The position numbers were made by a program, and so were the translations under genes. Shown one piece after another: positions 19,176 to 21,980 of a stretch of 36,833 nt of DNA. Each line of letters starts with the position of its first letter. The stretch's first letter is position 1. The DNA comes from Patescibacteria group bacterium (GTDB taxonomy: Bacteria; Patescibacteriota; Patescibacteriia; Patescibacteriales; GWC2-42-12), in contig JAQTVB010000010.1 in the NCBI GenBank assembly GCA_028707005.1, forward strand, positions 1 through 36,833. The letters run 5' to 3'. The notes beneath the pieces are model-generated. The model had not been told where the DNA came from, searched no databases, and saw only the letters and a list, made by a program, of their open reading frames with translations.

Positions 19176-19249
19176 GCGCGTGTAGCTCAGCTGGTGAGAG
19201 CACGGCTCTTATAAAGCCGGGGTCGATGGTTCGAATCCATCCACGCGCA
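19176..19249 (+). tRNA. tRNA-Ile, anticodon UAU
   Basis: A full cloverleaf: acceptor GCGCGTG/CACGCGC, D arm GCTC/GAGC, anticodon stem CGGCT/AGCCG around CTTATAA (positions 34-36 read TAT), variable GGGTC, T arm GATGG-TTCGAAT-CCATC, discriminator A. The 3' end continues CCT, so CCA is added after transcription. TAT reads AUA. Most bacteria read AUA with a CAU-anticodon tRNA modified to lysidine by TilS. Confidence 0.93.
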
Positions 19250-19286
19250 CCTAGGGATACAGTTTACGTCTTGCGGGATAGTATAT

Positions 19287-19360
19287 GGACAATTAGCTCA
19301 GTTGGTTAGAGCGCCACATTGACATTGTGGAGGCCAGAGGTTCGAGCCCTCTATTGTCCA
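19287..19360 (+). tRNA. tRNA-Val, anticodon GAC
   Basis: Acceptor GGACAAT/ATTGTCC, D arm GCTC/GAGC, anticodon stem CCACA/TGTGG around TTGACAT, variable AGGCC, T arm AGAGG-TTCGAGC-CCTCT, discriminator A, no encoded CCA. It is 37 bases after tRNA-Ile and shares a terminator. Confidence 0.95.
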
Positions 19361-19372
19361 CCGAAAAGAATA

Positions 19373-19406: not shown

Positions 19407-19645
19407 AAAACAATGGCTTCCTGCCTAAGAAGATGCCGATCTTAATTTCGACGGAAGAAGCAGCCGAAGACGAACTGGCCGAAACCTAGCCGCCAACACG
19501 CCTGAAAATGGCGTTTGAACTTTTCAACCCAGTCCCCTTGAACGGTAACTCGCTCAAGGGGATCTTTTTTATCTATCAATGCTTTCTGATGATTATTTGT
19601 AATATTAGTAATCAATTTGTAATATTCGCATTATACATTTGTAAT
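19407..19645 (+). other. intergenic stretch with a possible 18-codon reading frame and a terminator
   Basis: No recognisable gene. At 19433-19489 a short frame reads MPILISTEEAAEDELAET, an acidic peptide with a weak purine stretch upstream. It is followed by a strong terminator at 19533-19570. No promoter is apparent, so this may be a short transcript fed by read-through from the tRNAs, or the 3' remnant of an older gene. Confidence 0.2.
19533..19570 (+). terminator. Rho-independent terminator without an evident gene
   Basis: TCCCCTTGA and TCAAGGGGA are exact inverted arms around a 12-base loop, followed by TCTTTTTTA. A strong terminator here implies transcription on the plus strand between 19407 and 19533. 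Confidence 0.85.
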
Positions 19646-19678
19646 AAAAAAACTACCGCTGATCCTCCGCGCGGTAGT
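19646..19678 (-). terminator. terminator of the large RNA unit
   Basis: Minus strand ACTACCGC, loop, GCGGTAGT, then TTTTTTATTAC. Confidence 0.9.
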
Positions 19679-20252
19679 CAAAAAGTCGGCCAGAGAGAAT
19701 ACACCTCCTTGAATACTCACGCATTAACTTGTTGTTTGGGCCCAACAAGCAAATGGTGAACGCTGATTTCCTCTCTGGCTCTGAAAAAAGATGTACCGGA
19801 CAAGCGGGCCACCACTTAGCGCGTACAGCACGCGCCAGAATGCCACCGACAACAAAACAGCAGACGCTCGACCAAACGTCTTTGAGCTAATTTGTTGCAG
19901 TGAAGACAGCCAGGGAAACAAACACCCTGGCTATTGCGCCAAGCAATCTTGCTCCACTGCCCTACCCGGTACAAAATTAACAAAGTTCTAGACTATAAAG
20001 GAAGAGAGAGGAGGCGCGCTTTGCCCCATCGGTAACCAGAGCCATTGAATGGAAATTTCGTTGACACTCTGGGCGGTGGACACAACGGCGCACCCACCTC
20101 TCTCTCCTGCATGGCTCAAACAATCAACAAAAGCGCAACCGCTAGCGAGGATAATGCCGGCTGATTGACCATGGACATGCGCGGATCACGCCTCCTTGTC
20201 TGGGTACATAGCGCACGTCTTGTTGGTTGTCTGAAAACAAACGCTTTTAAGC
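19646..20252 (-). ncRNA. candidate large structured non-coding RNA, about 607 nt
   Basis: A consensus promoter at 20286-20259 and a strong terminator at 19678-19646 bound a minus-strand transcript with no convincing protein. It is full of long-range and local stems: CATGGTCA (20176 region) with TGA-CCATG near 20115; GGAGAGAGAGG (near 20105) with CCTCTCTCTTCC (near 20010) enclosing CCAGAG/CTCTGG and CCAT-TCA-ATGG; GCAGTG-AG (near 19960) with CT-CACTGC (near 19900) enclosing AGCAA/TTGCT and AGCCAGGG/CCCTGGCT; AGACG/CGTCT; GCGCGT/ACGCGC; and GCCAGAGAG (near 19780) with CTCTCTGGC (near 19692) enclosing a CTTGTT/AACAAG hairpin. Size and ornate folding, next to tRNA genes, recall OLE, ROOL and GOLLD RNAs, but I see no specific match. 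RNase P, tmRNA and 6S landmarks are absent. Two AAGGAGG sequences are present (near 20195 and 19709) without good frames behind them. Confidence 0.6.
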
Positions 20253-20258
20253 ATATTT

Positions 20259-20286
20259 AGTATAGTCTTTTTACCACGTTTGTCAA
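20259..20286 (-). promoter_or_regulatory. promoter of the large RNA unit
   Basis: Minus strand TTGACA (20286-20281), 16-base spacer, TATACT (20264-20259). A close consensus match, consistent with strong transcription. Confidence 0.85.
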
Positions 20287-20372: not shown

Positions 20373-20636
20373 CTATTCTCCGGGCTGCTTTGCCCGCGTC
20401 CCTCTTCGCTCGGATGCGCGCCTTGCCGCCATAACCAGAGCAATAATTCTGCGCATTTCTAACAACTCTGCTCCATCTTGTCCATAGCATTGATCTGCAA
20501 AAAGCCTTACGGCCAAAGACCAGCCAACTTTCTGCAGACTTACGCAACCACCATCTTTAGCCACCGATTGCAGCTGTTTTTCCCTGGCCGCCAAAATTTC
20601 GGGCGGTATGATGACCGTCGGAAAACGTCGAGCCAT
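20373..20636 (-). CDS. small helical protein, 87 aa, unknown function
   Basis: The start at 20636 is set by AAGGAGGAGGGT directly before the ATG; an in-frame start further up at 20678 would ignore this site. Sequence begins MARRFPTVIIPPEILAAREK and is then helical: QSVAKDGG, SLQKVGWSLAVRLFADQCYG, ELLEMRRIIALVMAARRASE, ending in a basic tail. VIIPPEILAAREK has the look of a short strand-turn-helix DNA-binding start (RHH-like), but the rest does not follow that fold closely. It has its own promoter, a 5' stem-loop and a terminator. G+C is higher than in the A+T-rich gaps around it. No family recognised. Confidence 0.7.
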   Translation of the reverse strand: MARRFPTVIIPPEILAAREKQLQSVAKDGGCVSLQKVGWSLAVRLFADQCYGQDGAELLEMRRIIALVMAARRASERRGTRAKQPGE

Positions 20637-20811: not shown

Positions 20812-20936
20812 TACGAAGGAAATACGAATTACGAATCTTATACGAATTTACGAATACTGATATCCACGCCATTTGCCTTGATTATGTTTTGCATTGCATT
20901 TATTCGTAAATTCGTACAAGATTCGTAATTCGTATT
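20812..20936. repeat. ATTCGTAAT-type degenerate repeats upstream of pheS
   Basis: TACGAATTACGAATCTTATACGAATTTACGAAT and its inverse ATTCGTAAATTCGT...ATTCGTAATTCGTATT (given in parts: TACGAATTACGAAT, ACGAATTTACGAAT, ATTCGTAAATTCGT, GATTCGTAATTCGTATT) make a large inverted arrangement across the gap. No gene here; a clear pheS promoter was not found. Confidence 0.6.
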
Positions 20937-20945
20937 GTTTATTTT

Positions 20946-21980
20946 ATGCTAGAAACTAAAATAAAAAATCTTTTAGCTGAACTTAAAAATAAGCTTAACC
21001 AGGCCCAATCTTTGCGTGATATAGCCGCGCTCTGGCGCCAGTATCTTGGCGACAAGGGCGTGATTAAGCTTGGTTTAAAAGAAATTAAAAATTTAACGGC
21101 CGAAGAAAAAAGAACGCAGGCGCCGACTCTGCAAAAACTCTTTCAGGAAGCTAATGAAACTTTTAAAGCCAAGGAGAGCGAATTAAAAAATAGCCTGGCC
21201 GGCCAAAGTCTGAAAACCGAAGCCGAGGCGCTGGCTTTCACTACCCCGAAAATCGGCCATCTTCATCCCCTTACAAAAACCATCAGGGAAATCAACCAGT
21301 TATTTATCAGCCTGGGTTATAGTATTATGGATGGCCCGGAAATAGAAGAAGACGAATATTGCTTCCAAAGGCTGAATGTGCCGCTGGATCATCCGGCTCG
21401 CGACATGCAAGACACAATCTATATTAAAGAACCCAATTTTCTTTTAAGGACGCAAACCTCTTCTATTGAGGCGCGCACCTTAGCCGATTTCCCTCCGCCT
21501 TTTAAAATTGTTTCGCCCGGACGGGTCTACCGCAACGAAAGCGTCAATAAAAGCAACCATTTCATTTTCCATCATTACCAGGGCGTAGTGGTGCAAAAAA
21601 AAGTTAGCTTAAAAGACTTGTTCGGCACCTTTGACGCTCTATTCAAAAAAATGTACGGCCCGCAAGTCGTAACCAGGTACCGCAACAAATATTATCCGGA
21701 AGTTGAACCGGGCGTCGGCCCGGACATGCAATGTTTTAACTGCGCCGGCCAGGGCTGTTCCGTCTGCAAAGGCGTGGGCTGGATTGAAATGGGCGGCGCC
21801 GGGATTATTCATCCCAATGTTATGCGCCAAGCCGGACTAGACCCAAAACAATGGATGGGCTTTGCTTTTGGTTTGGGACTGGACCGCTGGGTGATGGCCA
21901 AATATAATATTACCGACATCAGAACTTTGCTCGGCGGCAATTTAAGCTATAAATATTACCAAGATGAAACTGCTATATAG
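20946..21980 (+). CDS. pheS: phenylalanyl-tRNA synthetase alpha subunit
   Basis: 344 residues, class IIc catalytic subunit. An N-terminal coiled coil (about 1-90) binds tRNA-Phe. GHLHPLTKTIREINQLFISLGY starts the core, DMQDTIYI and LLRTQTSSIEART are the motif 2 region, FKIVSPGRVYRNESVNKSNHFIFHHYQGVVV follows, and GFAFGLGLDRWVMAKYNITDIR is motif 3. A Cys-rich loop (CFNCAGQGCSVCKGVGWIE here quoted in part: NCAGQGCSVCKGVGW) is seen in many PheS proteins. It overlaps pheT by 17 bases, consistent with translational coupling. Confidence 0.97.
   Translation: MLETKIKNLLAELKNKLNQAQSLRDIAALWRQYLGDKGVIKLGLKEIKNLTAEEKRTQAPTLQKLFQEANETFKAKESELKNSLAGQSLKTEAEALAFTTPKIGHLHPLTKTIREINQLFISLGYSIMDGPEIEEDEYCFQRLNVPLDHPARDMQDTIYIKEPNFLLRTQTSSIEARTLADFPPPFKIVSPGRVYRNESVNKSNHFIFHHYQGVVVQKKVSLKDLFGTFDALFKKMYGPQVVTRYRNKYYPEVEPGVGPDMQCFNCAGQGCSVCKGVGWIEMGGAGIIHPNVMRQAGLDPKQWMGFAFGLGLDRWVMAKYNITDIRTLLGGNLSYKYYQDETAI

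Follow-up and report, generated by a model that had tools for sequence, protein, structure and literature searches.

The window analyzed here is a 36,833-nucleotide stretch of DNA, contig C18 of a genome that measures 1.08 Mb and is 95.8% complete; its pheS relatives are Patescibacteria labelled Falkowbacteria or Parcubacteria. Genes for tRNA-Val and tRNA-Ile lie on the plus strand (19176–19362), as does pheST, which starts at 20946. The interval between them contains two units on the minus strand: that of an 87-amino acid open reading frame (ORF; 20766–20320), followed by the RNA unit (20286–19643) that is the subject of this report. The tRNA genes are located on the strand opposite to the RNA at a distance of 0.3–0.5 kb. 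The 87-amino acid ORF is probably a gene separate from the RNA unit, and its unit is not unusually structured (z −1.3).

An initial annotation described the RNA unit as framed by a near-consensus promoter and a strong terminator, with no plausible protein between them. All three features withstood closer analysis. The promoter (TTGACA-16-TATACT) agrees with the consensus at 11 of 12 positions, and the terminator, an ACTACCG/CGGTAGT stem followed by seven T residues (19678–19643), is part of the minimum free energy (MFE) fold. A simple terminator scan did not list this hairpin because its loop is longer than 8 nt. The longest sense ORF in the RNA encodes 65 amino acids from a TTG start and has no counterpart in the homologues from genomes G001 and G003 described below; indeed, no ORF is common to the window RNA and its homologues.

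The 607-nt RNA folds with a free energy of −240.4 kcal/mol, which corresponds to a z of −5.96 (0 of 20 shuffles as good); a repeat of the test with 30 shuffles gave a z of −6.6. By comparison, the mean z of 36 equally long control segments taken from elsewhere in the window is −1.1 (sd 1.3, minimum −4.5), which bears out the annotated dense secondary structure. The antisense (plus) strand has a similar z, yet it is 35 kcal/mol less stable; G-U pairs therefore favor the minus strand. The stems named in the initial annotation fared unequally. Two of them, GGAGAGAGAGG/CCTCTCTCTTCC and GCCAGAGAG/CTCTCTGGC, are present in the MFE fold, whereas GCAGTG-AG/CT-CACTGC is absent from it. The latter stem, which we designate P1.1, is nevertheless supported by the G001 homologue, in which 6 of 6 pairs are kept in an alignment made blind to structure. 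The closing helix of the first P1 domain can be forced into the fold at a cost of 2.6 kcal/mol. The predicted domains are listed in Table 1.

Table 1. Features of the two minus-strand units between the tRNA genes and pheST.
Feature	Position	Strand	Elements	Basis
87-amino acid ORF with Shine-Dalgarno sequence	20373..20636	−	Promoter TTGACT-18-TATAAT (20766-20737); terminator (20344-20320)	No match in Pfam
Promoter, sigma-70-type	20259..20286	−	−35 TTGACA (20286-20281); 16-nt spacer; −10 TATACT (20264-20259)	11/12 consensus
Candidate structured non-coding RNA, ~607 nt	19643..20252	−	Two tandem units and terminator	Fold z ~−6; homologues L034/L005 and L181; no match in Rfam
Unit A, P1 domain	20117..20233	−	Closing helix CAGACAACCAACAAGA (20233-20218) with TTTTGTTGATTGTTTG (20132-20117)	Sequence and pairing homologous to G001 P1
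Unit A, P2/P3 domain	20000..20107	−	GGAGAGAGAGG (20107-20097) with CCTCTCTCTTCC (20011-20000)	Aligns with G001 P2/P3
Unit A, inner elements of P2/P3	within 20000..20107	−	AGAGTGTC (20070-20063); ATTCAATGG (20050-20042)	
Unit B, P1 domain	19792..19973	−	TGTACCGGG (19973-19965) with TCCGGTACA (19800-19792)	Blind alignment with G001
Unit B, inner helix P1.1		−	GCAGTGGAG (19960-19952) with CTTCACTGC (19905-19897)	6/6 pairs kept against G001
Unit B, hairpin of P1 domain	19932-19908	−	AGCCAGGG/CCCTGGCT	
U-rich linker, P1 to P2	19779..19791	−	TCTTTTTTCAGAG	Kept in all three homologues (alignments A2, A4, A5)
Unit B, P2 domain	19689..19779	−	GCCAGAGAGGAA (19779-19768) with TTCTCTCTGGC (19699-19689)	Aligns with G003 P2
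Terminator hairpin	19643..19678	−	ACTACCG...CGGTAGT, then TTTTTTTATT	In MFE fold; stem CUACCG/CGGUAG conserved

Homologues and shared plan of the RNA

When the window RNA was used as a BLASTN query against 60 relatives, no match was returned. We located a homologue in genome G001 by reading the regions upstream of pheS in relatives. This 386-nt RNA (L005/L034, MFFY01000049) occupies the same position divergent from pheS, and the gene order (pheS, small ORF, RNA) is that of the window. Its promoter, TTGACA-17-TATATT, matches the consensus at 11 of 12 positions. BLASTN with the G001 RNA revealed a match in genome G003 (L181, LCCP01; E 1.2e-13), which corresponds to a 382-nt homologue beside tsaD. 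The G003 promoter contains an exact TTGACA and lacks a good −10 element at 16–18 nt. Both homologues fold better than their shuffles (z −5.9 for G001 and −4.4 for G003). The similarity of the copies likewise exceeds that of 300 dinucleotide shuffles, with alignment z values of 12.9 for G001 against G003, 8.1 for the 3′ half of the window RNA against G001, and 4.3 for the same half against G003.

Inspection of the surrounding sequence revealed other elements. Between pheS and the promoter of the small ORF, the window contains a long, near-perfect inverted repeat of the CGTAATTCGTA type (20820–20935); a different large inverted repeat occupies the same place in G001 (L034 6794–6957). In addition, a promoter and a short hairpin or terminator lie between the RNA gene and trpS of G001 (L034 ~5640–5500, minus strand), possibly representing another small RNA or the leader of trpS. 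The neighboring ORF was considered as the source of a partner protein and rejected: the 87-amino acid product in the window and the 92-amino acid product at the same position in G001 share no similarity and have no Pfam match, and G003 has no such neighbor.

The RNAs from the window, G001, and G003 share a common plan that comprises a domain closed by P1, a U-rich linker, a P2 domain, and the terminator helix. P1 is formed by GGCAACCGATAAG/CTTATCGGTTGTC in G001, GCGGACACCGGCAGA/TCTGTCGGTTGTCCGC in G003, and TGTACCGGG/TCCGGTACA in the window. The P2 stem, which is of the GAGAGG/CCUCUC type, is formed by CAGAGAGGGGG/CTCCCTCTCTG, CGGAGAGGGGG/CTCCCTCTCCG, and CAGAGAGGAAA/TATTCTCTCTG, respectively. 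The terminator helix is CUACCG/CGGUAG in the window and G001, with a CGGUGG variant in G003. The inner loops vary in both length and sequence among the three RNAs.

The window RNA is longer (~607 nt) because it contains two P1-P2 units in tandem. Its first half (20233–20000) repeats the plan of the second. None of 1000 shuffles aligned as well as the P2/P3 domain of unit A with that of G001 (z 4.7 global, 6.8 local), and the same was true of P2 from unit B and that of G003 (0 of 1000). The two units most likely arose by tandem duplication. The halves are no longer alike in sequence (z ~1–2), so a duplication, if real, would be old or have been followed by fast change. Given that 607 nt results from an apparent internal duplication, the basic RNA belongs to the 385-nt class.

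Two tandem P1-P2 units with an intrinsic terminator directly after them could also be read as a cis-acting leader, that is, a tandem riboswitch or attenuator in which two aptamer-like units and the terminator control a downstream gene. However, the next genes lie on the opposite strand in both the window and G003. In G001, trpS shares the strand of the RNA, but a distinct element that resembles a promoter and a terminator lies between the two. Moreover, the sequence of the terminator helix is itself conserved, and no competing antiterminator pairing has been retained. We regard a leader function as very unlikely. A similarly critical view applies to the possibility that the RNA is an mRNA for one or more short proteins, such as the 20-amino acid hydrophobic peptide MSMVNQPALSSLAVALLLIV that follows AAGGAGG at 20197. 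A Shine-Dalgarno-like sequence does lie 12 nt ahead of the ATG in unit A, but the homologues lack an equivalent peptide (their longest ORFs, of 43 and 49 amino acids, are unrelated), and the structure far exceeds that of coding controls. We find this coding role highly improbable.

Compensatory changes and distribution

Compensatory changes were assessed in A2, a structure-blind MAFFT alignment. The window retains pairing at all 13 positions of the G001 P1 helix, with both bases replaced at 4 of them; when the P1 partner is slid, only 5–6 of the 13 pairs form. P1.1 keeps its 6 pairs and the terminator 8 of 9, while P2 is placed in the wrong register and does no better than slid versions. In alignment A10, which was fitted by a covariance model and so leans towards structure by construction, 92.7% of cells pair and 16 of 52 pairs contain double changes; both values exceed those of all 500 shuffles. 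Over the three genomes, 6 of the 11 P2 pairs are invariant and 3 exhibit double changes. Double changes were also present in 9 of 16 P1 pairs over four hand-aligned units, an alignment that likewise leans towards structure by construction. Because only three genomes carry the RNA, these covariation counts rest on few sequences.

We searched more widely with a covariance model (R2) of the 3′ half, built from three seeds that were partly hand-trimmed and contained N at gap positions. Among 40 relatives, convincing matches were limited to the window genome, G001, and G003, and 381 genomes of the class yielded one additional marginal match (E 0.035). Weak matches of the model in other genomes (E 0.03–0.5) were taken as chance, BLAST matches in G050 and G004 proved to be coding sequence, and a pattern scan of viral contigs gave only chance matches to a short pattern. 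No copy was found in G002, the fourth genome of the genus (98% complete, 1.3 Mb), with either the covariance model or a comparison of 211 intergenic stretches; the RNA is therefore not universal in the genus. In summary, the observed range of the RNA comprises one genus of the Ca. Falkowbacteria group (Patescibacteria), in which three of the four genomes carry it.

Confinement to one genus, together with the different genomic position of the G003 copy, would fit a structure that arose by chance or one left behind by a mobile element. Against this, the RNA is present as a single copy in its own genome and has no match in phage or plasmid records. Furthermore, the compensatory changes and the kept promoter argue for selection. 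We therefore place very little weight on chance or mobile origin.

Known RNA families and possible role

The RNA matched no Rfam family at the gathering score, and the region gave no match to GOLLD, ROOL, or OLE at E values up to 10; the weak scores obtained with hairpin ribozyme (E 0.1) and microRNA models fell well short of the respective cut-offs and were dismissed. Other structured RNAs of this length class were found elsewhere. RNase P RNA (RF00010; G000:C22:921-1343, 200.8 bits) and tmRNA (RF00023; G000:C34:1483-1867, 124.6 bits) of the window genome lie at separate loci. Matches to both that exceed the Rfam cut-offs are likewise located elsewhere in each of the four genomes of the genus, and ARAGORN detected no tmRNA in the window or at the homologues. 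Although close in length to the 385-nt homologues, tmRNA and RNase P RNA differ from the present RNA, which has no tag frame, tRNA-like end, or RNase P conserved regions. These results agree with the initial annotation, which could place the RNA in none of the known families it considered. The RNase P RNA matches themselves (L249–L252 in G000, G002, G003, and G001) span 423–567 nt, compared with a 367-position model, which suggests that RNase P RNA of this genus holds large insertions.

The initial annotation also pointed to a likeness to ROOL and GOLLD on the basis of size and tRNA neighbors. ROOL is a large structured RNA often found near tRNA islands (PMC12286853). GOLLD is likewise large and structured and sometimes lies near tRNA genes; its 3′ region is conserved and its 5′ region less so, and its members, often longer than 800 nt, are found in phages and prophages (PMC12286853). 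The present RNA resembles GOLLD as a large, highly structured, free-standing bacterial non-coding RNA, and ROOL as a large structured RNA with tRNAs near the window copy. Unlike GOLLD, however, it is chromosomal and has a base length of ~385 nt; in contrast to ROOL, the examined window region contains no phage genes. It matches neither family in Rfam, and no tRNA genes were found flanking either homologue. The likeness is thus not supported, and the suggestive size of the window copy reflects the doubling of P1-P2. OLE is comparable in that it is a cellular RNA, large and structured, from one bacterial group, but the present RNA does not match its Rfam model.

A further candidate is 6S RNA, a free-standing, largely double-stranded regulatory RNA. 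The window RNA could be its functional counterpart, with extensive pairing and an ability to bind RNA polymerase: it is rod-like, stable, and free-standing, and the Rfam 6S model (RF00013) found no match in the four genomes of the genus at E values up to 1. The same model failed to detect 6S RNA in 8 of 14 control genomes, so a real 6S RNA may simply have gone unnoticed in these genomes. In addition, the present RNA measures ~385–607 nt rather than ~180 and has a different domain plan, a long central bubble between two helices is not a shared feature of its homologues, and one member of the genus is without it. We consider equivalence to 6S RNA quite unlikely.

CsrB/CsrC-type sponge RNAs carry an excess of GGA motifs in their loops. 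A role as a CsrA sponge was rejected, as GGA counts of 7, 6, and 6 show no excess over the expected 6.8, 5.4, and 5.8. The RNA might alternatively act as a Shine-Dalgarno decoy that binds the 3′ end of 16S rRNA and restrains ribosomes. The window RNA contains two sites, AAGGAGGCGTGATCC (20197–20183) and AAGGAGGTG (19710–19702) on the minus strand, both of which include AAGGAGG and are near-complements of the usual 16S tail. With the general bacterial 16S tail as the test partner, pairing equal to that of the window RNA occurred in 15 of 1000 shuffles. However, the property is not shared by the homologues (for G001 and G003, 55 and 327 of 1000 shuffles, respectively), and the sites are partly paired in the fold. 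A decoy function is accordingly remote.

From the sequence comparisons, the unit very probably represents a real gene for an undescribed family of non-coding RNA, the product of which would be a stable, multi-domain RNA independent of its neighbors. Transcription would start from its own promoter and stop at an intrinsic terminator. The basic form of the RNA, ~385 nt, would consist of a 5′ domain that the long-range P1 helix (13–15 pairs) closes, a U-rich linker and rod-like P2 domain, and the terminator helix. Sequence invariance is concentrated in helices, namely GAGAG/CUCUC of P2 and CUACCG/CGGUAG of the terminator. This combination of invariant helices and variable loops favors, among the roles considered, a trans-acting ribonucleoprotein scaffold or regulator, an assignment that we offer tentatively and at somewhat less than even confidence. 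In such a model, the U-rich linkers and the two helices of fixed sequence, in P2 and the terminator, would provide the binding sites for a partner, leaving the inner loops free to diverge. Genes for translation lie nearby in each case (pheST and tRNAs in the window, pheS and trpS in G001, and tsaD in G003); genes of this kind abound in these contigs, and the neighborhood is only a hint to role.

Small genomes of this kind retain little unused sequence. An RNA of 385–607 nt that has its own promoter and has survived extensive sequence divergence is therefore likely to be useful. Neither the Candidate Phyla Radiation nor Falkowbacteria yielded a paper on structured RNA motifs in a full-text search of the available literature. 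It is possible to speculate, although we think it unlikely, that the RNA exemplifies a lineage-specific modular class in Patescibacteria that grows by duplication of P1-P2 and either takes on a housekeeping role, such as that of an undetected 6S RNA, or builds an RNA or ribonucleoprotein particle. If confirmed, the candidate gene would supply a defined RNA target for metatranscriptome searches and pull-down, for which coordinates and a covariance model are at hand. It would also represent an RNA gene that doubled its working unit within a single genus.
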